Positions 26,438 through 60,877 of a DNA stretch of 64,000 nt are shown here, piece by piece. A model generated the notes under the pieces. That model was not told the origin of the DNA. It worked only from the letters and a program-made list of their open reading frames with translations, and did not search any database. Origin of the DNA: Nitrospira sp. (GTDB taxonomy: Bacteria; Nitrospirota; Nitrospiria; Nitrospirales; Nitrospiraceae); NCBI GenBank assembly GCA_015709715.1, contig CP054184.1, positions 1 to 64,000 on the forward strand, written 5' to 3'. The stretch's first letter is position 1, and every line of letters begins with the position of its first letter. The position numbers were made by a program, and so were the translations under genes.

Positions 26438-27243
26438 ACACAAATCACCATCCCGCCATCCGTGTTCATGTGGACCCGACAAACCCTGGTCAGTTTTTCG
26501 CGTGCTGCGGACTGCTTGAACTGGCACATCGTCTGTGGGACGGCGCGGAAGGGTGGTTTAAACAGGGAATGTTTTATCTTCGCCCGTTTGAGAGAGGAGA
26601 AGATAGGACATTGAGTTCGTTGCTGCACGAGATTTCAAAGACGCCTCTGAAGCAGATCGACCCAGAGGACGACTTCTCATCTCCAATGGAGTTGCCCTCT
26701 CCGTTCGCGCTACGGATTGATTGGTGGAAGGACGAAAGAACGGGTGGGGATCAGCTCAAGGTGTGGGCAGGAAGCATGCGAAGCGTGCGGATCACGCGAG
26801 CGATGCAAGCTACACTGAGTCAGACTGAGTTACACAACGAAGGCTTATTTGAATACGGTGCTGTCGTGTATGACCCACAAGAACCAGACAAAAAGGTTGA
26901 ACCTTTCTACTTCGATACCCGTCGTGGATCGAATGCCCTAGCGATTGACATTGGGTTCATGCCTGACAGCCTCAGCATGACGACCGTTGCCTATCCGACA
27001 GTGGAATTTCTCTGCCTCGTGGGGCTTCAGCGCTTTCGGCCAAAGCCAACAGCCACAAGAAGAGTCTTTGATTACTTCGCTTGGTTGGTACCCCTGGGAA
27101 TTGAAGTGGCACCTCTGGCAGCAAGCGGTGTGCTATCCCTTGTTGATGGCCAGGGCTATCGGTTTCAGATTGCTTTCCGCACAGACCAAAAGAAGCACAA
27201 GGCATTTACCCCAGCCTTTCCTATCGAAAGGAGCGAATCATGA
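26434..27243 (+). CDS. csb3: Type I-G effector subunit Csb3 (Cas8-like)
   Basis: A 269-residue protein of the GSU0052/Csb3 family, thought to act as the small Cas8-like large subunit of the I-G Cascade. Its start, IRVHVDPTNPGQFFACCGLLELAHRLW, is the family signature. The middle region (DWWKDERTGGDQLKVWAGSM) and the C-terminal FDYFAWLVPLGIEV segment also fit. It has no enzymatic motif. Both ends overlap neighbours by ATGA (cas3 upstream, csb1 downstream), so the four effector genes form one tightly coupled operon. By analogy, it should help recognise the PAM. Confidence 0.88.
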   Translation: MNTNHHPAIRVHVDPTNPGQFFACCGLLELAHRLWDGAEGWFKQGMFYLRPFERGEDRTLSSLLHEISKTPLKQIDPEDDFSSPMELPSPFALRIDWWKDERTGGDQLKVWAGSMRSVRITRAMQATLSQTELHNEGLFEYGAVVYDPQEPDKKVEPFYFDTRRGSNALAIDIGFMPDSLSMTTVAYPTVEFLCLVGLQRFRPKPTATRRVFDYFAWLVPLGIEVAPLAASGVLSLVDGQGYRFQIAFRTDQKKHKAFTPAFPIERSES

Positions 27244-28349
27244 GCGATGTGTTAGCAAAGTATGACACATGGTTAGAAGACACTGGGCCAGCTGCACTCG
27301 TTATCCGCGAATACCTGACGCCAGTTGAAGGGTATGATGGCGTCGTCTTCCCTTCGACCTTTGCGGCAGGTGACGGTTTCCCAGGCGGATATAACATTGA
27401 TACGTTTTCTGATGGCACAAATGTCTGCCTGATAGACAGCGTTGGTTCGCAGGCCAATCGGATCGAGCCGTTATTTGCCAATGATGGCTATGCGCGTTTG
27501 GTCCCGCAGATCGTGATCAAGGCTGGCGAGAAACGCGTGAATCTCCTTGAAGCTGGACACCGCGCAGGTGATGCGATCATTCGCTGCTCGGCTTTAAAGC
27601 AGGAGTTGCAAGCTGCCTTCAAGAAGGTGATGAACGGTAACGCCGAGCTATTGGCCAATGTCGCACCAACTTCAATGGTGTTCGGTGTGTGGGATTCCCG
27701 AGACACACAGGCGAAGCTGCCTCGGCTTCTCTCGTCAGCAGTTCGCGCATTTAATGTCCGGAAGCTAACCCGATCAGCTCAATACGTTCCGGCAGTCGAA
27801 TATGTGAACGAGGACCTGCTGGAGCTACCTTCTGATCAAAAGACAAAAGATGCCTATGCCGTAAGAGGGTTTATCCATGTTCCGGCCGCAGGAACACATG
27901 GCGGTGTGATCGCGACGGGTGGTATCCGGCGCGATGCGACTCTGCACCTTGCCGCCTTGCGTTTATTGACTGTGGATCAGGATGAAAAGAAGACCCGCGC
28001 CTTGCGTCGGTACGTGTTGGGGCTTGCTCTAACAGCGTTCACCTATTCTCCGATTGGATATCTCCGGCAGGGTTGCAATCTTGTACTCGACCCGGACAAG
28101 AAACGGGAGTTCAAGGCAGTCTATTACGACGGCAGACGTGAAGATGTGGACGTGAAGCATAAAGAGGCTTTTGATTATGCCAAGGATGTGGCAAGAGCGT
28201 TTGGCATAGACCCTGAGCGCGAAGTAGATTTCGCCAAACCTCCCGACCGCGAGGTTGAGTTTGATAAGGAACTGGCTAAGAAAGATGTGGCTGGCGATGC
28301 GGGCGGTAAGGGAGGGGAGAAAGCAAAAGGGAAGAAAGCGAAACAATGA
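27240..28349 (+). CDS. csb1: Type I-G Cas7 backbone subunit Csb1
   Basis: A 369-residue protein of the GSU0053/Csb1 (Cas7) family, the repeating crRNA-binding backbone of the I-G Cascade. Family features are YLTPVEGYDGVVFPSTFA near the start, SVGSQANRIEPLF, VFGVWDSRDTQAKLPRLLSSAVRAF and GGIRRDATLHLAALRLL. The C terminus is a Lys/Gly-rich tail (KGGEKAKGKKAKQ), presumably flexible. ATGA overlaps join it to csb3 and csb2. It should be the most abundant subunit of the complex. Confidence 0.93.
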   Translation: MSDVLAKYDTWLEDTGPAALVIREYLTPVEGYDGVVFPSTFAAGDGFPGGYNIDTFSDGTNVCLIDSVGSQANRIEPLFANDGYARLVPQIVIKAGEKRVNLLEAGHRAGDAIIRCSALKQELQAAFKKVMNGNAELLANVAPTSMVFGVWDSRDTQAKLPRLLSSAVRAFNVRKLTRSAQYVPAVEYVNEDLLELPSDQKTKDAYAVRGFIHVPAAGTHGGVIATGGIRRDATLHLAALRLLTVDQDEKKTRALRRYVLGLALTAFTYSPIGYLRQGCNLVLDPDKKREFKAVYYDGRREDVDVKHKEAFDYAKDVARAFGIDPEREVDFAKPPDREVEFDKELAKKDVAGDAGGKGGEKAKGKKAKQ

Positions 28350-29986
28350 GGCACTCCATGTCCTCATACTTCTGTATTTTTATTCGGCTACTTGACAGCA
28401 GGTTTCACGGGCGAAAAGAGCGACGTCTCCCAGAATGGCCACCGTCGCCGCTTCGCGTTTATCAGTCACTCGTTGCTGCGGCTTCCAGAATGGGAGAAAA
28501 CGGGTTAGCAGCTGGCGACATCCGATCGGCTTTAACCTGGCTGGAGCGAAAAGTGACTCCATCCTTGATTATTACGCCACAGGCGTATTCTTCCAGCCCC
28601 AATGGAAAGCGTCACGGATATGTGCTCTCAGTGCCCAATAACGCGATGGATATCGTCGCGAAAGCGTGGGCTCGAGGAAATTTAGCTGGAACAGGAGACT
28701 CCGATCCGTCAACACATCGCACCATGAAAACCGTACATCCGACCCATCTGCTGGACGGTGACGCAATCCACTACCTATGGTCGCTTCATGATCCTGAATC
28801 CAACGAGGACAGAGGGTGCCCAGACGTTCTGGCCAAAATTGCCAACAATCTCACGGCTCTCGGCTGGGGTATCGATATAGCGATTGGGCATGCGGCGCTG
28901 CTGTCTGATGAGCAAGTGAAAGCGTTAAGTGGAGAACGGTGGGTACCCGGAAGAGAAGGAGTCGAAGATGGACTTCGCGTGCCGACGTCCGGGACACTCA
29001 ACGCACTCATCGATCGACACGAGCGCTTTCTTAAACGGGTACGGCCGGACGGAACGTTCGATCCTACACCGCCCTTGCCGGAATCTGCCTACAAGAAAAT
29101 CGAGTATCGAAGAGCCACTGATCCACCGAGGAGGCTCGTCACCGCGTTTTCACTCCTCAAGCCCGATTCCAGCGGCTTCAGGCCCTTTGATACGGTACGT
29201 AGCAACCTTACGCTTGCCGGGATGATGCGGCATGCCGTGACATGCGCAACTCGTCGAGCCGGCTGGTCCGAGTCGAAGATAGCTGCTTTCGTCCTGGGAC
29301 ATGGGGAACCGATACGCGGAAATCACATTCCAGTAGGGCCTCGGAGATTTGCTTACTTGCCACTTCCCAGTATTGAGGGACGTGGTGAAGGGAAAGCCCG
29401 TGTCGTTGGGAGCGTGCGCCGACTCATGCTGACTGCGTTTTCCGATGACTGCGAGAAGGAAATTGCATGGGCACAGCGGGCGTTGTCGGGACGTGACCTT
29501 ATTGACGAGGACAGTGGGCAGTCTGCAGCATTACTCTCGCTCCTGCCCGGCAATGAAAAGGTGGTCCGCTGTTATGTCGAGCCTGCTGACACATGGTCCA
29601 CTGTGACGCCGGTAGTCCTCCCTGGTTATGACGACCCGGCGCACTATCGGAGGCGATTAAAGAAGGGGGTCTCGGCTGAAGAGCAGAAGCGGCTGCTGGA
29701 TCGTCTGAACGATAGGGTCGACGGCCTGCTCCGCAATGCAATCGTCCAGGCTGGGTTTTCCAAGGAATTGGCTGAGGATGCCGAACTTGAATGGCGCAAG
29801 GTTGGGTTCTGGGCTGGAACCGATCTAGCCGATCGTTATAGTGCGCCCGATCATCTCAAGGGTTTTCCCAGAATGCACGTGAGAATTCGCTGGAAGGACT
29901 CACAAGGTAGGCCTATTGCTATTCCAGGCCCAGTCTGTCTCGGTGGCGGGCGTTTCTACGGGTTAGGCTTGTTCGCTGCCGAGTAG
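28346..29986 (+). CDS. csb2: Type I-G Csb2 (Cas5-Cas6-like) subunit
   Basis: A 546-residue protein of the GSU0054/Csb2 family, which combines a Cas5-like handle-binding part with a Cas6-like processing domain. The N-terminal signature RFHGRKERRLPEWPPSPLRVYQSLVAAA is typical. The C-terminal end has a Gly-rich loop, GPVCLGGGRFYGLGLF, as in RAMP/Cas6 folds. In I-G this subunit is expected to cut the repeat at the base of its hairpin. ATG 28346 overlaps the csb1 stop (ATGA); a second ATG four codons later is possible. It is followed by a 106-base gap and then by hicBA on the opposite strand. Confidence 0.92.
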   Translation: MRHSMSSYFCIFIRLLDSRFHGRKERRLPEWPPSPLRVYQSLVAAASRMGENGLAAGDIRSALTWLERKVTPSLIITPQAYSSSPNGKRHGYVLSVPNNAMDIVAKAWARGNLAGTGDSDPSTHRTMKTVHPTHLLDGDAIHYLWSLHDPESNEDRGCPDVLAKIANNLTALGWGIDIAIGHAALLSDEQVKALSGERWVPGREGVEDGLRVPTSGTLNALIDRHERFLKRVRPDGTFDPTPPLPESAYKKIEYRRATDPPRRLVTAFSLLKPDSSGFRPFDTVRSNLTLAGMMRHAVTCATRRAGWSESKIAAFVLGHGEPIRGNHIPVGPRRFAYLPLPSIEGRGEGKARVVGSVRRLMLTAFSDDCEKEIAWAQRALSGRDLIDEDSGQSAALLSLLPGNEKVVRCYVEPADTWSTVTPVVLPGYDDPAHYRRRLKKGVSAEEQKRLLDRLNDRVDGLLRNAIVQAGFSKELAEDAELEWRKVGFWAGTDLADRYSAPDHLKGFPRMHVRIRWKDSQGRPIAIPGPVCLGGGRFYGLGLFAAE

Positions 29987-30092
29987 ATATCGTATAGGCT
30001 CTTGGTCATTCTTCCCACTTCGGCCTCGGTCAGTTCGAGGCGGTGGATTGTCCGTGAGGCGTGAGAAGCAGGGGCGCAGGGGGTTGCCTTCT

Positions 30093-30304
30093 TCAGAGAA
30101 GGTCCTTGAATTGTTCGAGGGAGATCTCGGCGGCTTCCAGAATTTGCTTCAACGTACTGGGCTTGATGCTGTGATGGCGGGGATAACCACGAGATGCTTA
30201 TCGTCGGTCATCGAGATGTGGTTGCCTTCGCGGAGGACATAGAATCCTGCGCGCTTGAGGGCTCTCACGACGCGTTCATGAGAGACCTGTGGGAGCTTCG
30301 TCAT
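30093..30304 (-). pseudogene. hicA: Frameshifted hicA toxin
   Basis: The minus strand encodes a HicA-like mRNA-interferase: LPQVSHERVVRALKRAGF, then REGNHISMTDD with the catalytic His in the GNH motif, then KHLVVIP. There the frame breaks: the next frame gives RHHSIKPSTLKQILEAAEISLEQFKDLL, the normal C terminus. One base is missing in the run of C near 30178-30184, leaving a 51-residue product that stops early. The start overlaps the hicB stop by ATGA, so hicB is first. The frameshift could be real decay of the toxin or a homopolymer sequencing error. If real, the antitoxin survives alone. Confidence 0.8.
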
Positions 30305-30504
30305 ACGCTGACTTTAACGGTTCTCAACTTCTTTAGGCGTTTGAGGTCTTCGATGCTTTCGAGGTAGGTCCTGATGGCGTCCTTGATGTTCCCCAAGGCT
30401 TCCTCTTCGGTTTCGCCTTGAGAGACGCATCCCTTCAGGGTCGGACAGAAGACGACATACCCTCCGGCCTCGGGGTCTGGCTCGATGACGATCGGATATT
30501 CCAT
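30301..30504 (-). CDS. hicB: HicB-family antitoxin
   Basis: A 67-residue HicB-like protein: MEYPIVIEPDPEAGGYVVFCP, then LKGCVSQGETEEEALGNIKDAIRTYLES, the RNase H-like fold of this family. Full-length HicB proteins often have a C-terminal DNA-binding domain; this one stops after a short Lys-rich tail, so it is the short single-domain form. It normally binds and blocks the HicA mRNA interferase. The ATG follows GGATCTGGAGG, and a perfect TATAAT lies 31 bases upstream. It is transcribed against the flanking cas genes. Confidence 0.88.
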   Translation of the reverse strand: MEYPIVIEPDPEAGGYVVFCPTLKGCVSQGETEEEALGNIKDAIRTYLESIEDLKRLKKLRTVKVSV

Positions 30505-30522
30505 ATAGGCCTCCAGATCCTA

Positions 30523-30570
30523 ACGTTGGCTGTCATTATAACAAAACGCCTGATTGATTCAGACGTTGGC
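30523..30570 (-). promoter_or_regulatory. Candidate hicBA promoter with paired operator repeats
   Basis: Reading the minus strand, TATAAT (complement of 30535-30540) is a perfect -10; the -35 is weak. Two direct copies of ACGTTGGC (30523-30530 and 30563-30570, forward) lie exactly 40 bases apart and flank the -10, as would suit a repressor dimer binding on one face of the helix. The repeats also lie upstream of cas4-cas1 on the other strand. Confidence 0.5.
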
Positions 30571-30619
30571 CGTTCTTTGACAACTGAATATTTCCAGCCC
30601 TCTTGCCGATAGGAAGGAT

Positions 30620-32320
30620 ATGGAACCTGAATCACAGGGACCATCCACGGGGAGCAACTTGCCGTTGCTCCCCGCGCGGATGGTGAACGAGTTTGCCTAT
30701 TGCCCGCGTCTGGCCTTCTTCGAGTGGGTGGATGGGGAGTTCGCGGACAACGCGGAGACGACGGAAGGTCGGTTCCACCATCGGCGCGTCGACCAAGCCC
30801 CGGTTCGCAAAGCGCGTCAGGTGGAAGATGAGCCATCCGGTGACACGACCATTCATCAGCGTTCGGTCTGGTTGTCGTCTGAGCGGCTCGGCGTCACGGC
30901 CAAGATCGATCTGGTCGAAGGGGAGGGGACGGCGGTCGTCCCCGTGGATTACAAGCGTGGCAAGCGCCCACATACGGCGCAAGGCGCGTGGGAGCCGGAG
31001 CGGGTGCAACTCTGTGTGCAAGGGTTGTTGCTGCGGGAACAAGGCTTCACCTGTGAGTGCGGAGTGCTCTACTTCATTGGTTCGCGTGAACGGGTGGAGG
31101 TGTCATTCGATGATGAATTGATCGCGCGTACGGCGGAACTTCTCCAAGGCATGCGGGCAATGACCCAGGCGACCGTGGCCCCGCCGCCGTTAGTGGACAG
31201 TCCGAAGTGCCCACGTTGTTCACTGGTGGGGATCTGTTTGCCGGATGAAGTGGGGTGGCTGCGAGCGGCACAGGAGGGCGAGCAAGCGGCGCTTCGTAAG
31301 CTCATTCCCACCAACGATGACGCCTTGCCGCTCCATGTGCAGACGCCGGGTGCGAAGGTGGGGAAGGACGGGGAGTGCCTGAAGGTGAAAGACCACGAGG
31401 AGGTGATCGGCGAAGCGCGGCTGGTCGAAACCTCGCAAGTCGTGCTGTATGGCGCGGTACAGGTCAGCACGCAGGTCGTGCAGGAACTCTGCAAGCGGAA
31501 CATTCCTTTGGTCTATTGCTCCAGCGGCGGCTGGTTTTACGGCATGACGACGGGCCTGCTGCACAAACATGTGGAGTTGCGGCGTCGGCAGTATGCGGTG
31601 GCGGCGGATCGGGAACGTTGCCTTGGGCTGGCACGGCGTTTTGTGCAAGCCAAGATCGCCAATTGCCGAACCCTGTTGAGGCGCAATCACCGGGCGGCGC
31701 CGGACATGGTGCTGCAGGAGCTGAAAAACGATCAGGTCCACGCCGGTACGGTAGAGTCATTGGAATCGTTGCTGGGTGTGGAAGGCACCGCCGCCCGACG
31801 GTATTTCTCGGAATTCGCCGGCATGTTGAAAGAAGCTGAGCCAGGGGCCCGATTTGATTTCGACGGGCGTAATCGTCGCCCGCCGCGCGACCCCGTCAAC
31901 GCGATGCTGTCCTTGCTCTACTCCATGCTCGCGCGTGAATGGACCGTGACGTTGCAGAGCGTGGGGCTTGATCCCTATTTGGGGTTTTATCATCAGCCGC
32001 GTTATGGGCGACCGGCCCTGGCTCTCGACATGATGGAAGAGTTCCGTCCCCTCATCGCCGATTCTGCCGTGCTCACGGCCATCAACAACGGTGAGATTCG
32101 ACAGAGCGATTGGTTTGAGCGCATGGGGTCGGTGACGTTGACGCCGGAAGGCCGCCGCCGGTTGATCGAAACCTATGAGCGGCGCATGGGCCAAGAAATT
32201 ACGCATCCGGTGTTCGGGTACCAAATTAGTTACCGTCGAGTGCTGGAAGTGCAGGCTCGGCTGCTGGGACGGTATCTGTTGGGAGAGATACCCGAACTCC
32301 CGGCGTTTACGACACGGTGA
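30620..32320 (+). CDS. cas4-cas1: Cas4-Cas1 fusion, adaptation integrase
   Basis: A 566-residue fusion typical of subtype I-G. The Cas4 part (about 1-215) is a RecB-like exonuclease with Fe-S cysteines Cys28, Cys197, Cys200 and Cys206 and nuclease residues in the region KIDLVEG and VDYKRGK. Cas1 (about 235-566) has catalytic Glu388 in GVEGTAARRYF, His458 in GFYHQPRYG and acidic residues in ALDMMEEFRP. Cas1 integrates new spacers; Cas4 trims prespacers and selects those with a PAM. A TTGACA at 30577-30582 could be a -35 box, so it may be transcribed apart from cas3-csb2. The start of cas2 follows by 5 bases. Confidence 0.95.
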   Translation: MEPESQGPSTGSNLPLLPARMVNEFAYCPRLAFFEWVDGEFADNAETTEGRFHHRRVDQAPVRKARQVEDEPSGDTTIHQRSVWLSSERLGVTAKIDLVEGEGTAVVPVDYKRGKRPHTAQGAWEPERVQLCVQGLLLREQGFTCECGVLYFIGSRERVEVSFDDELIARTAELLQGMRAMTQATVAPPPLVDSPKCPRCSLVGICLPDEVGWLRAAQEGEQAALRKLIPTNDDALPLHVQTPGAKVGKDGECLKVKDHEEVIGEARLVETSQVVLYGAVQVSTQVVQELCKRNIPLVYCSSGGWFYGMTTGLLHKHVELRRRQYAVAADRERCLGLARRFVQAKIANCRTLLRRNHRAAPDMVLQELKNDQVHAGTVESLESLLGVEGTAARRYFSEFAGMLKEAEPGARFDFDGRNRRPPRDPVNAMLSLLYSMLAREWTVTLQSVGLDPYLGFYHQPRYGRPALALDMMEEFRPLIADSAVLTAINNGEIRQSDWFERMGSVTLTPEGRRRLIETYERRMGQEITHPVFGYQISYRRVLEVQARLLGRYLLGEIPELPAFTTR

Positions 32321-35871: not shown

Positions 35872-37048
35872 GGAAGGTCTGATTTATTCTCTTTGCATGA
35901 TGTGCTAAGGGTAGCGCAGCACTGAACTGGAGGCGTGCCCCATGCAGCAACAGACGTTTGCCGAAGTCTCGTTTGAACAGTATCGCAAGCCCACCCGCCG
36001 GGAGCAGTTTCTCAACGAGATGAACCAGGTTGTTCCATGGGCGGAATTGGTAGCGGCGATCGAGCCGGTCTACCCCAAGGCCGAGGGCCCAGGGCGTCCG
36101 CCCGTGGGTGTCGAACGCATGTTGCGCCTCCATTGTCTGCAACAGTGGTTTAACCTGTCGGACCCGGCGGTGGAGGAAGCGCTGTACGACTCACACGCCA
36201 TGCGGCAGTTCGTGGGGATTGATCTGGGCCGCGAGCCCGTACCGGATGAAACCACCATCTGTAAGTTTCGGCATCTGCTGGAAGCCCACCACTTGGGCGC
36301 ACAGCTCTTTGCGCGGATCGGCGCGTATCTGGCTGCCCACGGGCTGAAGGTCAGCCGGGGCACGATCGTGGATGCCACGATCATCAATGCGCCCAGTTCG
36401 ACGAAGAATCGCCAGAAAGAGCGAGATCCGGAGATGCATCAGACCAAGAAGGGGAACCAGTGGTATTTCGGCATGAAGGCGCATATTGGAGTGGACAGCC
36501 GGACGAAGCTGGTTCACTCAGTGGCGGCCACGGCGGCGAATGTCCATGACAGCCAGGTGTTGCCGGAGTTGCTGCATGGACAGGAGACACGAGTATGGGG
36601 CGATGCCGCCTATAGCGGGCAACGCGACATGATTCAGCACCATGCTCCCCATGCCAAGAGCTTCGTCCAGACGAAAGCCCATCGCCATCGGCCCTTGAGC
36701 GAGACGGAGCGGGCCCGCAATCGGACGAAGTCGAAGGTTCGTGCCAAAGTCGAGCATGTGTTCTTGGTGATCAAGCGGATCTTCGGGTGGGCCAAAGTGC
36801 GGTACCGGGGGCTCGCGAAGAATGCGCACTGGTTGTCTATCAGTTGCGGCTTGGCGAATCTGTATGTAGCACGCCGGCACTTGCTGGCGGCAGCCTAGCG
36901 GACGGGGGTGCGAACGGGGCGCGGGCCGCCTGACGGCGGAGGAATCCGAGAAAGGCGCTCTCGGACCAGCGGGTTCCCAGCTGATGGCCCGTCTTGATCC
37001 ACCGAGAAACAGATTGCTTCGTGGAAACGCGAATTAATCAGACGTTCC
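35872..37048 (+). mobile_element. IS5-like insertion sequence, copy B, inside the CRISPR array
   Basis: Same 1,177-bp element as copy A, opposite orientation. Left end GGAAGGTCTGATTTATTC at 35872, right end complement of GGAACGTCTGATTAATTC ending at 37048. The target duplication CTAG lies at 35868-35871 and 37049-37052; its G is the first base of the next repeat. Removing the IS and one CTAG restores a 35-base spacer and an intact repeat, so the insertion hit the spacer-repeat junction exactly. The transposase reads in the same direction as the array. The array thus continues after the IS with 17 more full repeats. Confidence 0.96.
35942..36898 (+). CDS. IS5-family transposase (copy B)
   Basis: Identical in protein sequence to the copy A transposase (318 residues) and intact. 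Its DDE residues are in GTIVDATIINA, RVWGDAAYSGQ and VEHVFLVIKRIFGW. A good ribosome site (CTGGAGGCGTG) precedes ATG 35942. Because it is collinear with the CRISPR transcript, read-through from the leader could express it, and read-through from its own promoter could express the 17 distal spacers. Two identical intact copies in one window point to recent transposition. Confidence 0.95.
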   Translation: MQQQTFAEVSFEQYRKPTRREQFLNEMNQVVPWAELVAAIEPVYPKAEGPGRPPVGVERMLRLHCLQQWFNLSDPAVEEALYDSHAMRQFVGIDLGREPVPDETTICKFRHLLEAHHLGAQLFARIGAYLAAHGLKVSRGTIVDATIINAPSSTKNRQKERDPEMHQTKKGNQWYFGMKAHIGVDSRTKLVHSVAATAANVHDSQVLPELLHGQETRVWGDAAYSGQRDMIQHHAPHAKSFVQTKAHRHRPLSETERARNRTKSKVRAKVEHVFLVIKRIFGWAKVRYRGLAKNAHWLSISCGLANLYVARRHLLAAA

Positions 37049-51085: not shown

Positions 51086-54000
51086 ATGGCTGAGCCAAAA
51101 GACGATAAACCGAAACTACCGCTGACCGGCATCGTGGCGTTGGTGCTGGCGCTGGTGAGCAGTCTTCTCATCTATCAGGTGCCGCTCAAGACCTCGCGGC
51201 CGATCGACAAGGAAGCGGAGAAGGCAGCCGCCGTCGCCCCAGACCGTGTGCAGGCACGTCTGTGGCAGGATCCGTTCGAAGCGGTGACGACCCATCGGCT
51301 CAAGGAAGGATCGCAGAAACGAGCTGGGCAGGATTCGACGCAGCACCATACTGCGGCTGACGTGATTGCGGCGATGGGGTTCGGCGGCGCGTCTTCACCG
51401 ATCCTCGTGCTGCCGGTGTTCATGGATGGGAGTCCCTACGCCAGCGGCGTCGAGTCGCGGCTGCGGGATCGTTACGCCGTCGTGTCGGCCTTGGGCGCTG
51501 CAGGGTATTTGCCGGAGTCGGGCGAATATATCCGCTTCTTCGAGTGGGACCAGCCGTCGGGCGAGTCGGTCGTGGTACCGATTGAACGGTTCCAGCGGAC
51601 TGCGGACGAGGGCCAAGGGCCGAGTGTGACAGAGGTGCTGGTGTTGTGGCTCAAGGAGCAAGATATCGGAGCGGATCCTCTCCTATCGTTGGGGCGCCTG
51701 TTGATGCACATGAATTGCGCCTTCAAGGAGCGAACCGCGATCTACAGGGTGCTGGGGCCGCGCTCGTCGGGTTCGCTCCGAGCGATGGTGGATGAACTCC
51801 GTCTCCGGGGTGCCGCGGTGGCCACGCCCAGTCTTCGCCGAGCGCCCTCTGCGGCGTCTGATGTCGATGGCGCCTGGTCGGTCCTCAAGGGAATCGTCTT
51901 GTATTCCTCCTGGGCCACGGCGGCGGATCCGTTCCTGCTCGCAGAGGTTCCGAAAGGAGCCGAAGCGAAGACGGTCGAGGGATGGTTCAGGGACGGCGGC
52001 ATCACACTCGTGCGCGCGATCGGAACCGATGCCGATTTGGCCGAGCAACTCATCGAGGAGCTACGTCGGCGGGAGGTCGATCTCACCGTCTCGCGGCAGG
52101 CACGCGCAGCAGAACAGGAGCAGCGGGGCCATGTTCCCCACGTGGCCCTCATCGCGGAATGGGACACCCTCTATGGGCGGGCGCTGCCTCAAACGTTCGT
52201 GGCCGTGGCGAACCAACTGGCGGAGCTGAACGAGAAGCAGGCAGCCTGCCATACGCTCGAATGGCATCTGGATGTGCTTCGTACCAAGAACTACCCGCAT
52301 TGGGTGCATCGCTATTCCTACCTCGCCGGCCTGGATGGTGAACTGCCGCCGAAGAACCAGGACAAAGACGGCGCGTCAGCCAAGCCGAAACTCGGGGAGG
52401 GTGGATTGCGGATCGAGCAGGGCCTGGCGGAGACGCCGGCAGGCCGAAGCCAGCTGGACTATCTGCGTCGGTTGGTGGAGACCTTGAAGCGTGAGCAGGC
52501 GACGGCCGATGGAGAATTCCACGCCATCGGGGTTTTGGGGAGCGATGTGTACGACAAGCTGATGATCCTCCAGGCGCTGCGCAGCAACTTTCCCCATGCG
52601 CTTTTCTTCACGACCGATCTGGACGCTCGGCTGACACACCCGAGTCAATGGCCCTGGGCGCGCAATCTGATCGTGGCGTCGCATTTCGGCCTGGCACTGC
52701 ATCCCAAATTGCAGACGCCCATTCCGCCTTTTCGCGACAGTTATCAAACCGCGTTGTTCTATTCGGCCCTGCGCGCGGTGGACCATCTTGTCGAGAAGGG
52801 GCAGGAATTTGCGACGCCGTTCGGGGTGACGGTACCGAGCGAGGTGCGGCCGCGGCTCTACGAAATCGGCAGGCATGGCGCGGTGGACGTGAGCCCTGAT
52901 CCCCCGTACGCCTCGCCTCCTTCGGAGAAGCACCTTCCGAGTCTCCATCTGCCGCGTCCGGATCTCGATCCCCAGAGCGGCAGGGTCCGTCTTGTGGCGG
53001 CGCCGACCGTGATGTTGGTTGGAGCAGCCATTGTTGTGATGTTGTGTTGTGCCCTCTTGATCAACAGCGAACTCTGGCATGCCTTCCGGAAGGCCGAGCT
53101 TCGACAAGTGGTGCCGGGCTTGGCGCTGGCAGTGATGCTGTTGGGCGGGCTGCTCTGCTGGGCGATGGGCGACGGAACCGGCGGCGAACCATTCTCGCTG
53201 ACGGAGGGGGTCAGTGTGTGGCCGACAACGGTGATCAGGCTGCTGGCCTTTGCCCTGTGCCTGGCCTTTCTGCACCATTCGTGGTGGCGTCTGCGAGAAA
53301 ACGGCCGCGAACTCATGCAACGTTTCTCTTTGCCCGACGCCGATACGGCTCAGGCTTTGGGGATCCATTCCGCCATCGGCCTCCACGATTGGTGCCCGCA
53401 TCCGAAGGGCGAGGTGGCGGTTGAGGAGTTGTGGAAGGAGTATCGATCACGCGGGACTGTGGGCGAGCGGTTGATGCGGGTGCTTCCGCAGACGGTGCTG
53501 TACGGTGTCTTGGGCTTGCTGCTGATGTTCCTGTCAGAGTTCCCCGTGTTGCCCTGCCGAGGAGCGGCCTGTTTTCAGGTCAACCAGGTCATTCTCCTGC
53601 TCAGCGTCGTGGCCATGACCCTATTGATGTTTTATGTGGTGGATGCGACGCGGCTCTGCCGCCGCCTGATCTCCATCATGGTCGGGACGACCATCCGGTG
53701 GCCCGAAGACCTCTTGGCGAAGGAAGCGGCCCAACTGGGGGTGGATAAGGCTGTCGTGCGCGAGTGGGTGGCCATCCAGTTCATCGCGAAACGAACGGCC
53801 GTCATCAGCGCCATGATCTATTACCCCTTCATCATTGTTTTCCTGATGGTAGTGGCGCGGCATGGCTATCTCGACCGCTGGGATTTTCCGATCGGCCTGC
53901 TGGTGATTTTCGGCCTCAACGCGGCCTATGCGTTCGGCAATGGGGTGTTTTTGCGGCGTACTGCCGAACAGGCGAAACGGGCGGCCGCGGCGCAGATGAG

Positions 54001-54205
54001 GACCAGACTCACCGGTGTGTCCGGCGTAGCAGCCTCCTCGAAAGAAAAACAATCGCTGATCGAACGGATGGCGGCATTGATCGAGGACACACAGGAAGGC
54101 GCCTTCCTTCCGTTTACCCGCCATCCCCTGTTCGGCGCCATCGCCTTGCCGACCGGCGGCACCGGCCTGGTGTTCTTACTGGAATATCTGGCGACGCTTT
54201 TTTAG
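51086..54205 (+). CDS. Large multi-pass membrane protein of unknown function
   Basis: A 1,039-residue protein. One N-terminal membrane segment (about 13-31) is followed by a 600-residue soluble region with alpha/beta character (VVVPIERFQR, IGVLGSDVYDKLMILQALRSNFPHALFFTTDLD). About eight further membrane segments follow after residue 645. A late soluble loop (about 885-910) is Arg-rich. I do not recognise a family. ATG 51086 (MAEPKDDK) is chosen over TTG/ATG 51041. It lies between dnaE, which is divergent, and the NnrS gene, which starts 29 bases after its stop and may be cotranscribed. Confidence 0.75.
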   Translation: MAEPKDDKPKLPLTGIVALVLALVSSLLIYQVPLKTSRPIDKEAEKAAAVAPDRVQARLWQDPFEAVTTHRLKEGSQKRAGQDSTQHHTAADVIAAMGFGGASSPILVLPVFMDGSPYASGVESRLRDRYAVVSALGAAGYLPESGEYIRFFEWDQPSGESVVVPIERFQRTADEGQGPSVTEVLVLWLKEQDIGADPLLSLGRLLMHMNCAFKERTAIYRVLGPRSSGSLRAMVDELRLRGAAVATPSLRRAPSAASDVDGAWSVLKGIVLYSSWATAADPFLLAEVPKGAEAKTVEGWFRDGGITLVRAIGTDADLAEQLIEELRRREVDLTVSRQARAAEQEQRGHVPHVALIAEWDTLYGRALPQTFVAVANQLAELNEKQAACHTLEWHLDVLRTKNYPHWVHRYSYLAGLDGELPPKNQDKDGASAKPKLGEGGLRIEQGLAETPAGRSQLDYLRRLVETLKREQATADGEFHAIGVLGSDVYDKLMILQALRSNFPHALFFTTDLDARLTHPSQWPWARNLIVASHFGLALHPKLQTPIPPFRDSYQTALFYSALRAVDHLVEKGQEFATPFGVTVPSEVRPRLYEIGRHGAVDVSPDPPYASPPSEKHLPSLHLPRPDLDPQSGRVRLVAAPTVMLVGAAIVVMLCCALLINSELWHAFRKAELRQVVPGLALAVMLLGGLLCWAMGDGTGGEPFSLTEGVSVWPTTVIRLLAFALCLAFLHHSWWRLRENGRELMQRFSLPDADTAQALGIHSAIGLHDWCPHPKGEVAVEELWKEYRSRGTVGERLMRVLPQTVLYGVLGLLLMFLSEFPVLPCRGAACFQVNQVILLLSVVAMTLLMFYVVDATRLCRRLISIMVGTTIRWPEDLLAKEAAQLGVDKAVVREWVAIQFIAKRTAVISAMIYYPFIIVFLMVVARHGYLDRWDFPIGLLVIFGLNAAYAFGNGVFLRRTAEQAKRAAAAQMRTRLTGVSGVAASSKEKQSLIERMAALIEDTQEGAFLPFTRHPLFGAIALPTGGTGLVFLLEYLATLF

Positions 54206-55422: not shown

Positions 55423-55654
55423 CGGAGGCTTCTCACCCCCGTATCTCTTTCGATACCGTTCACGACCGTTTTAGATACAGTGCCTCCTTCCAGCGCCCTT
55501 CCGCAAAAATACGTCCATTCCTATGTGGTCAAAAAACCAGTGAGGGTTTTCCTCAGGTTCTTTCGGCACATGCCTTGCTGACTCCATGTCTCGCGGAGGC
55601 ATGTGACGTAGGAAACCACCATTCAACCGGTTGTCTAGCGGCGGGGGACCTTCC

Positions 55655-57367
55655 ATGGCTAAAAGAAAATCGAAAGCGGCGACAACAGGGCAAAAGAAAT
55701 CAAGCCGACCGATTGGGGCCCGCGGAAAGCCGTCGCAGGGCGAACTTCCCGGGTCGGCGATGCCGACCACATCTCCGGTGAACCCGAGCAGGCCTTCACC
55801 CGGGTCCGATCTCGAAGAGAAGCTCAAAAAAAATCTCGTAAAGACGGTCATCGCGCTTCCCCTCCTCGATAAGTTGAATCGAGAAACCGATCGGCGAAAG
55901 ACGGCACCCTCGACGCCGCCGGCCTGTTACTCGGTGATCATCGATCTTAACCTCGACTATCCGAAAGGCCGGGATGCGGCCCGGATCTGGGTGTTCGAGA
56001 AGATCGAGGCGCTGATCACTCAAGGCGGACGAAATCCGGCCGACCAACGACTCGATCGTAAAAAAAGCGACTTCAATGAGCAATATGTTTTTGCCGCCCT
56101 CGAAGGGCAGGTGATTCGTGAACTGGTCGAGCAGGACGCGAAGGTAAAACCCGACGTGCTGGGCGCAGACGGCAAGCCCAAGGCGGCTCGGGCCATCTAC
56201 CAGATCTGGGAAGATTTCACGCTCACGGCGTTCATTACCAGTTCCGTCAGTACGGTGAAGGCCGATGCCGCCCGAGTGGCCTTTTCCGCCTTGGGCGACA
56301 ATATCGTCTGGGCCGTGATCGATTCCGGGATCAAGGGCGACCATCAGCATTTTGGCACGCACCGGAATCTCGCAGGCCAAGTCGAGGAATGGCACTACGA
56401 TTTCACGGACGGGAGCGATCCGAAGAAGACGGCGTTGGTAGATGGAATGGGCCACGGCACCCATGTGGCCGGCATCATTGCGGGAGAAATCCCTCCCGAT
56501 CCCAAGCTCCCGCCGGGCGAATCCCACCCCGACATTCGGGCCTTTTTCCGAACGCTCAAGCCTGACGGGGACCAAACGGAACGGGAGGTCGTCTACGAGC
56601 AGATCAAGGCTGCCTCCATTTCCGGCATGGCGCCTCGCTGCAAGTTGGTCAGTCTCAAGGTCTTGAACGAATCCGGCCAAGGGAGTGTCAGCAACATCAT
56701 CGCGGCGATCGGACACGTTCAGCGCATCAACAGCTACGGGCGGTGGATCCGTATCCATGGGGTCAATTTGAGCGTCGGTTACCAGTTCGAGCCTGAGTGG
56801 TTCGCCTGCGGGCAAAGTCAGCTCTGCGTGGAGGTGGATCGCTTGGTGCGATCCGGGGTCGTGGTCGTGGTGGCGGCCGGCAATTCCGGTTATGGCACGC
56901 TGTCTACTGATTTCACCGGGCTGCGTTCGGCCGGCATCAGTTTGACCATCAACGACCCGGGCAATGCCGATCTCGCGATCACCGTCGGTTCGACTCACCG
57001 CAATATGCCGCACCAATACGGCGTATCGTATTTTTCGTCGAAGGGGCCCACGGGCGACGGCCGTCTGAAGCCGGACCTGGTTGCGCCGGGTGAAAAGATC
57101 CTGTCCTGCGCGGCGGGGAGGATGGAGATGGAGATTCAGGAGAAGATTGAGAAGGACGTGACGTACCTGGAACACTCCGGGACGAGCATGGCGGCGCCGC
57201 ATGTCTCCGGGGTCATTGCGGCGTTCCTGTCCATCCGTCGCGAGTTCATCGGACAGCCGGAACGGATCAAGCAGCTTTTTCTCTCGACCGCCACGGATCT
57301 TCGGCGTGAACGCTATTTCCAAGGGGCGGGGTTGGTGGACCTCATGCGCGCAATCCAATCCATTTAG
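55655..57367 (+). CDS. Subtilisin-like (S8) serine protease
   Basis: A 570-residue S8 protease. The triad is Asp223 in WAVIDSGIKGDH, His267 in GHGTHVAGIIAG, and Ser511 in SGTSMAAPHVSG; the oxyanion Asn is in AAGNSGYG. A Lys/Ser-rich tail (1-50) and a propeptide-like domain (about 60-200) precede the catalytic part. There is no signal peptide, so it acts inside the cell. It is the first of three tightly spaced genes (17 bases to the hydrolase); ATG 55655 is preferred over ATG 55631. The 230 bases upstream show no other feature. In defence modules S8 proteases can act as switches for partner proteins. Confidence 0.9.
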   Translation: MAKRKSKAATTGQKKSSRPIGARGKPSQGELPGSAMPTTSPVNPSRPSPGSDLEEKLKKNLVKTVIALPLLDKLNRETDRRKTAPSTPPACYSVIIDLNLDYPKGRDAARIWVFEKIEALITQGGRNPADQRLDRKKSDFNEQYVFAALEGQVIRELVEQDAKVKPDVLGADGKPKAARAIYQIWEDFTLTAFITSSVSTVKADAARVAFSALGDNIVWAVIDSGIKGDHQHFGTHRNLAGQVEEWHYDFTDGSDPKKTALVDGMGHGTHVAGIIAGEIPPDPKLPPGESHPDIRAFFRTLKPDGDQTEREVVYEQIKAASISGMAPRCKLVSLKVLNESGQGSVSNIIAAIGHVQRINSYGRWIRIHGVNLSVGYQFEPEWFACGQSQLCVEVDRLVRSGVVVVVAAGNSGYGTLSTDFTGLRSAGISLTINDPGNADLAITVGSTHRNMPHQYGVSYFSSKGPTGDGRLKPDLVAPGEKILSCAAGRMEMEIQEKIEKDVTYLEHSGTSMAAPHVSGVIAAFLSIRREFIGQPERIKQLFLSTATDLRRERYFQGAGLVDLMRAIQSI

Positions 57368-57384
57368 CGATCGAGGAGGTTGTG

Positions 57385-58701
57385 ATGGAACAGTTGTCGG
57401 GGTTTGCTTATTTTCCGGTGCAGTTCACGAAAGACGCCGTCGTGCATGACCAGACCGAAGTGACGCGGTTGAAAGAGTTCCTGCGTCAGGATCGGACGAC
57501 CGATCTGATCGTCATTTCCCATGGGTGGAACAACAACATGGATCAAGCGAAGGACCTCTATGCAAAGTTCTTCGCCAACTTCCGGTCGGCGCTGACCGTC
57601 GGATCGCCTGCGGGGCTCGCGAACCGTCGGTGGGCCATCCTCGGCGTGTTGTGGCCCTCCAAGAAGTTCGAAGAGAAGGAACTCATTCCGAGCGGCGCCG
57701 CCGGGGCCGGTTCGGTGGTCGGAATGGCCGCCATGAAAGCGAAATTGGCGGACCTCAAGGGCGTGTTCGACGCGCCGCAAGCGGATGTGACGATCGAGGA
57801 GCTGCAAAAACTCCTGCCGAAGTTGGAAGACAGCACGACGGCGCAGAGAGAATTCATCGAAAAGGTCCGTTCGCTGGTTCCGAAGCGCTCCCTCGATGCG
57901 GAAGACGGCTCGGGGCTTTTCTTTCAGGAGCCGCCCGCAGAGGTGTTGCAGAAGTTGAGCAGGCCGGTCTCCTTCACGGTGGCCCGTCCGCCGGTCAATG
58001 CGGGGGGCGCTGCGGCGATCGGCGCGGGTGGAGCGGCGGGACTGGGAGAATTTTTCAGGGGCATCTGGTCGGGTGTGCGGAACGTCCTCAACTACACAAC
58101 CTACTATCAGATGAAGGAGCGAGCCGGACTGGTCGGAGCGAACGGCGTCAACCCGATCCTCAGCGCCATCAAGGCTGAACAGTCCGAACTCAAGATGCAT
58201 CTGATCGGGCACAGTTTCGGCGGACGATTGGTAGCCGCGACCGTCGCCGGCGTCAGCGACGCCGCGCTCCTGCATGTGACGACTCTTTCGTTGCTCCAAG
58301 CGGCCTTTTCCCATTACGGCTTTGCGGAGAAATGGGACGGGACGAACCACGGATTCTTCTACCGCGTGGTGGGGGGGAGGGCCGTCGCCGGTCCCACGAT
58401 CATCACCTGTACGGAGAATGATAAGGCTGTGGGACTCGCCTATCCCATTGCGTCATTGTTGGCCGGGCAGGTGGCGTCCGGGGTCGGAGACAAGAACGAC
58501 AAGTACGGCGGGATCGGCCGCAACGGGGCGCAGAAAACACCACGGACCGTGGATCTCTCGCTGCTCGACGTGACGGGTTCCTATCAGCTGACCAACGAAG
58601 GGGTACACAACCTGTCGACCGACCGCCTGATTACCGATCACGGAGATGTGGCCAATCAGGCGGTCGTGCACGCCGTCGCCTCGGCCATCGCGGCGACGTG
58701 A
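57385..58701 (+). CDS. Intracellular serine alpha/beta hydrolase
   Basis: A 438-residue protein with the alpha/beta-hydrolase nucleophile elbow GHSFGG (275-280, Ser277) and an oxyanion-type HGWNN at 46-50. Candidate acidic and His partners lie near the C terminus, around DLSLLDVTGSYQL and ITDHGDV. A long helical/Gly-rich insertion (about 95-235, with GAGGAAGLGEFF) lies between strands and may act as lid or membrane contact. No signal peptide is present. The substrate is unknown; esterase or lipase activity is plausible. ATG 57385 is favoured because GAGGAGG is 7 bases away. It lies in one operon with the protease and SIR2 genes. Confidence 0.82.
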   Translation: MEQLSGFAYFPVQFTKDAVVHDQTEVTRLKEFLRQDRTTDLIVISHGWNNNMDQAKDLYAKFFANFRSALTVGSPAGLANRRWAILGVLWPSKKFEEKELIPSGAAGAGSVVGMAAMKAKLADLKGVFDAPQADVTIEELQKLLPKLEDSTTAQREFIEKVRSLVPKRSLDAEDGSGLFFQEPPAEVLQKLSRPVSFTVARPPVNAGGAAAIGAGGAAGLGEFFRGIWSGVRNVLNYTTYYQMKERAGLVGANGVNPILSAIKAEQSELKMHLIGHSFGGRLVAATVAGVSDAALLHVTTLSLLQAAFSHYGFAEKWDGTNHGFFYRVVGGRAVAGPTIITCTENDKAVGLAYPIASLLAGQVASGVGDKNDKYGGIGRNGAQKTPRTVDLSLLDVTGSYQLTNEGVHNLSTDRLITDHGDVANQAVVHAVASAIAAT

Positions 58702-58750
58702 CGGATATCGCGCGATGGCCGAACGAGCGCTTCATCCGGAGAGGCCTGCA

Positions 58751-60877
58751 ATGGTCGAGCGGGCTCGACATCTACGACTCGGAGAACCCGAGCCGCATCT
58801 GTTGGACCTGAATGCGGCGGTGATGGAGATCCGTCAGGCTTGCGAGGAACTGGGCATGGAGGCGCACCGATCGCCCTTCTTTTTTGTGGTCGGTGCCGGT
58901 ATTTCCTTTCCGCCGGTTCCCCTCGCGTCGAACATCATCGATGACTGCAGGAGTATCGCCGAGCGCTACCTGCGCCGGGGCTCTCCTGACAGCGAGCAGA
59001 CGCTGGACGCCTATTCCCATTGGTTCAGCCGCGCCTACCCGGGAGCGCGTCAACGTCAGCACTACCTGCGGAAGCTGATTGAGCGAAAGCCGTTGTCGCT
59101 TGCCAGCCTGCGCCTGGCCCATCTGCTGTCGTCCCGCAAACTGACCAATCTCGTGGTGACGACCAACTTCGATGATTTCATTGCAAGGGCCCTCCGGCTC
59201 TTCGGCGAAGAACCGTCGGTCTGTGATCACCCCCGAACCGTGGGCCGCATCGACCGCGAACGCGCGGATATCCAGATCGTGCACGTCCACGGCAGTTATC
59301 TGTTTTACGACTGCGCCAATCTGCGCGGTGAAGTGACCGACCGCGCCCGCGCCGACGAGGAGACGAGCGTGACCATGGTGGGGTTGCTTGACAACCTTTT
59401 ATGGACCCGCTCGCCCCTCGTGATCGGATATTCCGGTTGGGAGGGGGACGTGATCATGAGCGCGCTGAAGCGCCGGCTGCGCGGAGGCAACCCGCTGGCG
59501 CAAAGCCTGTACTGGTTTTGTTATCGGCGAGAGGATCTGGGACGTCTGCCGAGCTGGCTGCGCGACAGCGCGGATGTCCGTTTCGTCGTGCCGACGGAGC
59601 CTCCGCCCGAGACGTTGTCGCAGGGGGCTGTGACCGTGCGCGCCGGGAGTGAAGAGGGGATCGGCGCGTCGGATGGGAGGCATCGCGGGACGGTGCTGGC
59701 GGCGTTTGCCGTTTTCGACGAGTTGAACCGCGCGTTCGATATCGGTGCGCCGGCATTGTTTGAAAATCCGATTGAATACTTCGCCGACAGCCTCCAGGCG
59801 GCCCTGCCGGATCTGGAAGAGCCCGGAGGCGATCCCTATGGGTTCAAGCGATTGGTCGAGCGGCTCCATCAAGCCGCCCAGAGTTTCGGTCGGGTCGCCG
59901 GCGCTACGAGCGCGCTGACGGCGGACCTCGATCGGCTACGAGCGCTCATGCGGGAATCTCAATATGGCCAGGCCCTCACGCTGTTGGCCAAGCTCGTGCC
60001 GAGCCGGCTTATGAAGCTGGGTCCCGATGAGCGTCGTGAAGTCCTCCAGGCGGCGAATCTCGCAGGGTCCGCGCTCTTGGCGAAACCACAGAACGGAAAA
60101 TTCGATGAGGCCTTGGCGCATGTGTTGGTGTATGACCCACGGTTGGAGAAGACATTGGGGCCGCTCCCTGCAGGCATGGTCTGGGCAATCGGATCGCGCT
60201 CGGGGCAGGTGGGCTACGAGATGCTGGCAGGCGCCAAACCGCACGGCGCGTTCACGGTCCAGCTGATTGAGACCTTGCGCGATCCTGCCGCTGATGCCGA
60301 TGGTGACGGACGCATCTCGTTGCTGGAAGCCACGATGGCGGCCGGTCGCCGTGTGTTGCGGGAAGGGCATCCGCAGACCCCTGTCGTTGCGGGTGATGCC
60401 GCTACCGTCGCGCTGTTTGCTTCTCGAAAACAGAAACGGAAGATCAGCGGCGGGCCGCCCGGGACCCTCCATGCCCTGCTGGTGGGGGTGGGCCACTATC
60501 GTCTTCCCGGCGCGAAGCTGTCCGGTCCGGCAAACGACATTGAGGGATTCCGCGACCTGCTTCGCACCCGCGAACGACGGCTGTTCAGGCAGGTTGAAAT
60601 CCACACGCTGCTTGACCGGCAGGCTACCAGGGCAGGGTTTGATCGGGCCTTGGCTCGTCTGGCCGACGTCGCAAACCCTCAGGATCTGGCGTTGCTGTAT
60701 TTCAGCGGACACGGCTCCCGACGCGACCTCTCGAAGAAGGCCGATGGAGCGCAGGAATTGGTGATCGTCTTGTACGATTTCGATAACAAAGGGCGCGGCG
60801 AAATCAGCCATGCCGGGCTTGTGAAGGCTTTCGAGGCGGTGAAGGCCGAGCAGAAAGTCATAATCCTGGACTTCTAG
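58751..60877 (+). CDS. SIR2-like protein with truncated caspase-like domain
   Basis: A 708-residue protein. Residues about 30-320 are a SIR2-like NAD domain: GAGIS (48-52), TTNFDD (137-142), His180-Gly181 and GYSGWEGD (226-233). A helical stretch (about 395-480) follows. Residues about 480-560 look like the C-terminal part of a caspase fold, with an EF-hand-type loop DADGDGRISLLE (515-526). From 571 a caspase/metacaspase N-terminal half begins (ALLVGVGHY), with catalytic His654 in FSGHGS, but the protein ends IILDF*, where a Cys would be expected. ATG 58751 has GGAGAGG upstream; ATG 58715 is possible. SIR2 domains in immunity deplete NAD. Confidence 0.75.
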   Translation: MVERARHLRLGEPEPHLLDLNAAVMEIRQACEELGMEAHRSPFFFVVGAGISFPPVPLASNIIDDCRSIAERYLRRGSPDSEQTLDAYSHWFSRAYPGARQRQHYLRKLIERKPLSLASLRLAHLLSSRKLTNLVVTTNFDDFIARALRLFGEEPSVCDHPRTVGRIDRERADIQIVHVHGSYLFYDCANLRGEVTDRARADEETSVTMVGLLDNLLWTRSPLVIGYSGWEGDVIMSALKRRLRGGNPLAQSLYWFCYRREDLGRLPSWLRDSADVRFVVPTEPPPETLSQGAVTVRAGSEEGIGASDGRHRGTVLAAFAVFDELNRAFDIGAPALFENPIEYFADSLQAALPDLEEPGGDPYGFKRLVERLHQAAQSFGRVAGATSALTADLDRLRALMRESQYGQALTLLAKLVPSRLMKLGPDERREVLQAANLAGSALLAKPQNGKFDEALAHVLVYDPRLEKTLGPLPAGMVWAIGSRSGQVGYEMLAGAKPHGAFTVQLIETLRDPAADADGDGRISLLEATMAAGRRVLREGHPQTPVVAGDAATVALFASRKQKRKISGGPPGTLHALLVGVGHYRLPGAKLSGPANDIEGFRDLLRTRERRLFRQVEIHTLLDRQATRAGFDRALARLADVANPQDLALLYFSGHGSRRDLSKKADGAQELVIVLYDFDNKGRGEISHAGLVKAFEAVKAEQKVIILDF

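Follow-up and report, generated by a model that had tools for sequence, protein, structure and literature searches.

The first 64,000 nucleotides of contig CP054184.1 of Nitrospira sp. (assembly GCA_015709715.1), here called the window, belong to a complete chromosome of 4.16 Mb. Three genes on the same strand, flanked by nnrS and a conserved coiled-coil gene, encode a subtilisin-type (S8) protease, an alpha/beta serine hydrolase and a protein in which a SIR2-like domain is joined to a caspase-like region (Table 1). The intergenic gaps are 17 bases (S8-hydrolase) and 49 bases (hydrolase-SIR2), as a preliminary description of the locus had stated. That description also held that the catalytic motifs are complete in all but the caspase part and that signal peptides are lacking. 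Both statements agree with what is found: the S8, hydrolase and SIR2 motifs are intact, the caspase part has no Cys, and no hydrophobic signal stretch is seen at the N-termini on inspection by eye.

Protease, hydrolase and SIR2 domain

All three S8 catalytic motifs are present in the first protein, which also carries family signatures common to S8-hydrolase loci and to loci that pair an S8 protease with a metallo-beta-lactamase (MBL) protein. In the second protein, the hydrolase triad is invariant across nine relatives. Its insertion, read from the spacing between positions 46 and 277 and from composition, is variable among these relatives, and the Gly/Ala-rich stretch may be regarded as a candidate protease-sensitive gate.

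The SIR2 motifs of the third protein, GAGIS, TTNFDD, HVHG and GYSGWE, are conserved in its relatives. The domain is predicted by AlphaFold2 with a predicted local distance difference test score (pLDDT) of mostly 70-90, and the solved folds nearest to the model in a Foldseek search are DSR2, SPARSA and KomC. The active-site Asn and His that mark the SIR2 fold of DSR2 and SPARSA class effectors are both present. SPARSA and KomC are NAD-depleting defence proteins, as is DSR2. Upon phage infection, DSR2 depletes NAD (PMC10973363). From its sequence and predicted structure, the third gene probably encodes a DSR2/SPARSA-like NADase. The sequence relatives of this domain are solitary SIR2 genes from several phyla, often with a TPR-type tail, and no S8 or hydrolase gene stands alongside them. 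Of the possible starts of the third gene, 58751 is favoured by the GGAGAGG just before it; 58715 and 58646 are earlier alternatives.

Table 1. Positions, in the window, of the three genes, their domains and an adjacent hairpin
Feature	Position	Strand	Description
Hairpin, terminator-like, after NnrS gene	55541..55555	+	Number of such sites near chance
S8 (subtilisin-type) protease gene	55655..57367	+	570 aa; N-terminal region of ~195 aa, then catalytic domain; Pfam Peptidase_S8 8.6e-45; no signal peptide
S8 catalytic domain	56294..57331	+	D223 in DSG, H267 in HGTHVAG, S511 in GTSMAAP
Alpha/beta serine hydrolase gene	57385..58701	+	438 aa; triad S277 (nucleophile, in GHSFGG), D346, H419; weak Pfam DUF900
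Hydrolase insertion, ~140 aa	57667..58089	+	Between HG motif and nucleophile; Gly/Ala-rich loop
SIR2 / permuted caspase-like gene	58751..60877	+	708 aa
SIR2-like NADase-type domain	58799..59599	+	Pfam SIR2_2 1.4e-10; PADLOC SIR2-pAgo match; N and H active-site motifs intact
Helical linker	59702..60139	+	Corresponds, by alignment, to start of TPR-like tail in stand-alone SIR2 relatives
p10-like caspase half	60167..60424	+	Precedes p20; Pfam C14 profile 153-224/233
p20-like caspase half	60467..60874	+	SGHG His; Pfam C14 profile 3-87/233; ends ILDF-stop

The permuted caspase-like region

The order of the two caspase halves is reversed, with the p10-like half N-terminal to the p20-like half. Against Pfam Peptidase_C14, the p10 fragment taken alone matches with an E-value of 0.009 and the p20 fragment with 5.5e-11. 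The real p10 fragment scores 14.6 bits, compared with a best of 9.5 bits among 850 scored residue shuffles. In hhalign comparisons with canonical caspases, the p10 half maps downstream of the Cys (3.7e-6, one comparison) and the p20 half upstream of it (8.3e-21). The same arrangement emerges from a custom hidden Markov model built on 22 caspase-type sequences of the same order; the p20 match to this model stops at the Asp that precedes the catalytic Cys. The best NCBIfam match of the p20 half is the EACC1-associated caspase (2.2e-15, below the model cut-off). A 2019 survey is reported to have met no p10-p20 order among 11,208 prokaryotic p20 sequences (PMC6426788).

The protein ends in VIILDF, where canonical relatives continue as LDSCHSG. 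Its last Cys is residue 257, so that the caspase part has none. The His of the SGHG motif is present, but the stop codon precedes the position of the Cys and there is no catalytic His-Cys dyad. The fold appears in effect to be opened at the active-site loop, with the Cys and the linker missing. Because the catalytic Cys is absent, caspase-type cleavage is impossible, and the domain cannot act as a cutting caspase; an active caspase within a proteolytic cascade is thus rejected.

The same architecture is found in a second species of the genus (genome G006), whose protein is likewise permuted and ends in VVILDF. The end point is the same in the two species even though one uses TAG and the other TGA as stop codon, and the caspase regions are 63% identical. 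In neither species does any downstream frame encode the missing Cys motif, which excludes a frameshift or readthrough that would supply it. The ratio of non-synonymous to synonymous substitution rates (dN/dS) between the window and G006, approximate because dS is near saturation, is 0.10 for the p10 half, 0.17 for the p20 half, 0.08 for the SIR2 part, 0.11 for the hydrolase and 0.18 for the S8 protease. Both caspase halves are therefore under purifying selection, and the low values together with the shared end point rule out a decayed pseudogene.

Distribution and neighbourhood

In G006, the S8, hydrolase and SIR2 genes have the same order and the same neighbours as in the window, with identities of 74, 76 and 71%. 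Since the trio, its order and its site are shared and all its parts are under purifying selection, the association is not due to chance. The SIR2 gene is present in two of 29 genus genomes. Among the genus loci fetched, seven genomes (G000, G001, G005, G006, G015, G021 and G025) have the S8-hydrolase pair where the window has it; in many others the interval between nnrS and the coiled-coil gene contains no pair. An obligate three-gene system is rejected because the SIR2 gene is missing at five of the seven S8-hydrolase loci; the conserved unit is the two-gene pair, not the trio. The preliminary description named a lack of co-occurring homologues elsewhere as grounds for refutation; for the pair, such co-occurrence is seen. 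In both the S8 and the hydrolase tree, G006 groups with the SIR2-less G001, a result that fits either loss of the SIR2 gene in G001 or a separate gain. Directly upstream of the S8 gene in G006 (L028 7525-9432) and in G001 (L089 8510-10417) is a gene for a peptidase M64 protein that carries lectin-like repeats.

Outside this phylum, evidence for the pair comes from plasmids only, closely spaced S8 and hydrolase genes recurring on plasmids of Rhizobium, Sinorhizobium and Rhodococcus. Window-type S8 genes, recognised elsewhere by shared signatures, are also followed by a pro-nuclease-type MBL protein matching the LmuA, Avs1a and RTasMBL models at five plasmid loci (L107, L108 and L116-L118), from Methylorubrum, Paroceanicella, S. 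meliloti, R. phaseoli and Miltoncostaea. On plasmid pCMU01 of Methylorubrum extorquens (L107 1788-8463), PycC, E2 and PycTIR genes are followed directly by the S8 gene and an Avs1a/LmuA-type MBL gene. On pRHL1 of R. jostii RHA1 (L106 7004-11263), the S8 protease, the hydrolase and a TIR protein are encoded in one direction, a set that parallels S8-hydrolase-SIR2 in the window. In R. leguminosarum (L109 5851-7611), a TIR domain is fused C-terminally to the S8 protease in a single polypeptide, and an R. phaseoli plasmid (L118 1333-10235) has, in a row, MBL-like, FRG-pYEATS, S8, MBL, DUF3616 and SIR2-TPR genes. With the SIR2 domain of the window, an NADase-type domain (TIR or SIR2) accompanies the S8 protease in five settings, to be read as recurrence and not as a statistic, since the plasmid records are a non-random sample. 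Overall, S8 relatives adjoin Pycsar, TIR, SIR2, patatin and FRG genes.

More distant relatives of the hydrolase have a C25 or CHAT (clan CD) protein as neighbour in place of the S8 protease. At L057 7899-10680 and L110 6380-9376, hydrolase relatives are followed directly by C25 cysteine peptidases, with CHAT proteins nearby, and the hydrolase-C25 locus of Sinorhizobium terangae also has nuclease/helicase and WYL genes in its vicinity. Hydrolase relatives were not found in phage records, and in viral contigs neither the hydrolase nor the permuted domain had a confirmed relative; a phage origin of the locus is rejected on these results.

The hairpin between the NnrS gene and the S8 gene weakly suggests that the trio forms a transcription unit of its own, and an Rfam scan of 50-64 kb found no RNA elements. 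A large membrane protein with no Pfam family above cut-off is encoded at 51095-54202; most members of the genus conserve it in the interval from dnaE to nnrS, but the loci fetched for G006 and G001 did not show it. CRISPR-Cas genes at 23630-32320, some 23 kb away from the trio, encode a Cas3-like helicase, members of the GSU0053 (Csb1) and GSU0054 (Csb2) families and a Cas4-Cas1 fusion, a set consistent with subtype I-G/I-U, and a DDE transposase gene lies near them at 35942-36898.

Relation to known systems and possible function

Like the nuclease-protease pairs of AVAST, Lamassu, Hachiman, DRT and canu (PMC12799240), the locus sets a protease next to a partner with a hydrolase fold, a combination that unrelated defence loci have in common, and MBL proteins of the LmuA, Avs1a and RTasMBL kinds are the partners of some relatives of the S8 protease. 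The window, however, has an S8 protease instead of a fused trypsin-like one, an alpha/beta hydrolase instead of an MBL nuclease, which occurs only in the relatives, and no adjoining STAND, SMC or helicase sensor. Canu, in particular, combines an active caspase with an MBL nuclease, while the window trio has neither the caspase Cys nor an MBL protein. DSR2, SPARSA and KomC share the SIR2 fold and active-site motifs, but where DSR2 has its sensor region, or where a pAgo partner stands, the window protein has the permuted caspase without Cys. Type III metacaspases of algae (PMC5756287, PMC6426788) also have the p10-like half N-terminal to the p20-like half; the window protein differs in being bacterial, fused to SIR2 and devoid of the catalytic Cys. 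In EACC1/VMAP systems (PMC7159879), which the p20 match recalls below its cut-off, a caspase-type protein also adjoins an alpha/beta-hydrolase gene and inactive caspases are common in the effector position; the window differs by its S8 protease and by the absence of MoxR, vWA and VMAP among the Pfam-scanned neighbours. The S8 protease is distantly similar to IetS of IetAS (PADLOC, 2e-14), but it scores 34.8 bits against a 900-bit cut-off of the NCBIfam IteS model, and the AAA ATPase IetA is absent among the Pfam-scanned neighbours of the trio. A limited search of the open literature found no description of the S8-alpha/beta hydrolase pair or of the SIR2-permuted caspase fusion. Both belong to known kinds: protease/effector pairs, SIR2 effectors and pseudo-caspases.

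The proposal that these are intracellular immunity-type proteins is supported. The proteolytic cascade with an NAD-depleting effector, put forward in the preliminary description, survives in part: the recurrence of an NADase-type domain beside the S8 protease favours the effector, while a cascade running through the caspase is not supported, since that domain is permuted, lacks a Cys and breaks off ahead of the nucleophile, which leaves one protease and not two. Several defence systems have gated MBL pro-nucleases that are switched on by trypsin-like proteases and caspases, and further nuclease homologues adjoin proteases from other diverse families (PMC12799240). In VMAP conflict systems, an alpha/beta-hydrolase gene is always found next to the caspase domain, and inactive forms make up about 70% of the caspases in effector position (PMC7159879). 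From these precedents, and from the EACC1-associated match of the p20 half, we propose that the S8 protease may activate the hydrolase through its insertion and that the dead caspase may link the SIR2 NADase to the S8 protease, the hydrolase or a cellular signal.

The locus would then be a candidate anti-phage or programmed-death cassette with a protease/pro-effector pair at its core, a reading to which we give a probability of about 0.5. Upon a trigger, the S8 protease would be released from its own N-terminal region and would cleave the hydrolase, probably within the Gly/Ala-rich insertion, and so make it active and toxic. To this the third gene would add a DSR2/SPARSA-like SIR2 NADase in which a circularly permuted caspase fold has taken the place of the TPR-type tail. 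This dead fold would probably dock or sense the S8 protease, the hydrolase or a cellular substrate or signal, and would probably gate the depletion of NAD by SIR2.

Several points weigh against the cassette reading. The SIR2 gene is optional at the pair loci of the genus. The window copy sits amid housekeeping genes (dnaE, nnrS), outside any recognised defence island, and the rhizobial pairs also adjoin ordinary metabolic genes (transport, thiamine). Cleavage of the hydrolase is a step that we infer. AlphaFold2 performs poorly on the permuted region, with a mean pLDDT of 38 when the C-terminus is modelled alone, in a run made without homologues, and values mostly below 50 in the full-length protein; since this region was not resolved, the caspase fold assignment rests on sequence profiles. 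A housekeeping or stress proteolysis module, acting in protein quality control or lipid turnover and not in immunity, would agree with the site between nnrS and the coiled-coil gene and with the metabolic neighbours of the rhizobial copies. It is nevertheless improbable, given the patchy distribution in the genus with its empty sites, the frequent plasmid location and the defence-type genes that adjoin relatives of the S8 protease.

It is also conceivable, if rather unlikely, that the S8 protease and the hydrolase form a genuine module beside which an independent, stand-alone SIR2 defence gene was inserted by chance, the caspase piece being a passive fusion. The rarity of the SIR2 gene in the genus, its solitary and often TPR-tailed relatives and the grouping of G006 with SIR2-less G001 would all be explained, but not the tight same-strand spacing in both species, the NADase-type genes beside this S8 protease in four other settings or the purifying selection on the caspase halves. 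The same selection, the identity between the two species and the identical ILDF end reached through different stop codons make it quite improbable that the caspase part is a functionless recombination remnant, made of the C-terminal piece of one caspase and the N-terminal piece of another, although the missing Cys and inter-domain linker, the abrupt end and the lack of a downstream frame with the Cys motif are what such a remnant would show.

The cassette reading has a more specific form, which is possible but doubtful: a new immune variant in which an S8-activated alpha/beta-hydrolase pro-effector is combined with a SIR2 NADase regulated by a dead permuted caspase opened exactly at its Cys. 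This would be the first prokaryotic caspase with the p10-p20 order and the first dead caspase to gate NAD depletion. If so, the principle of exchangeable protease/pro-effector pairs would extend from trypsin-like or caspase partners of MBL nucleases to S8-alpha/beta hydrolase pairs, and such pairs would become linked to NAD-depleting TIR and SIR2 effectors. The permuted caspase without Cys, conserved in two species, would also show that bacteria can retain caspase folds for regulation and not for cutting, with the halves in an order for which algae have been the one described source.

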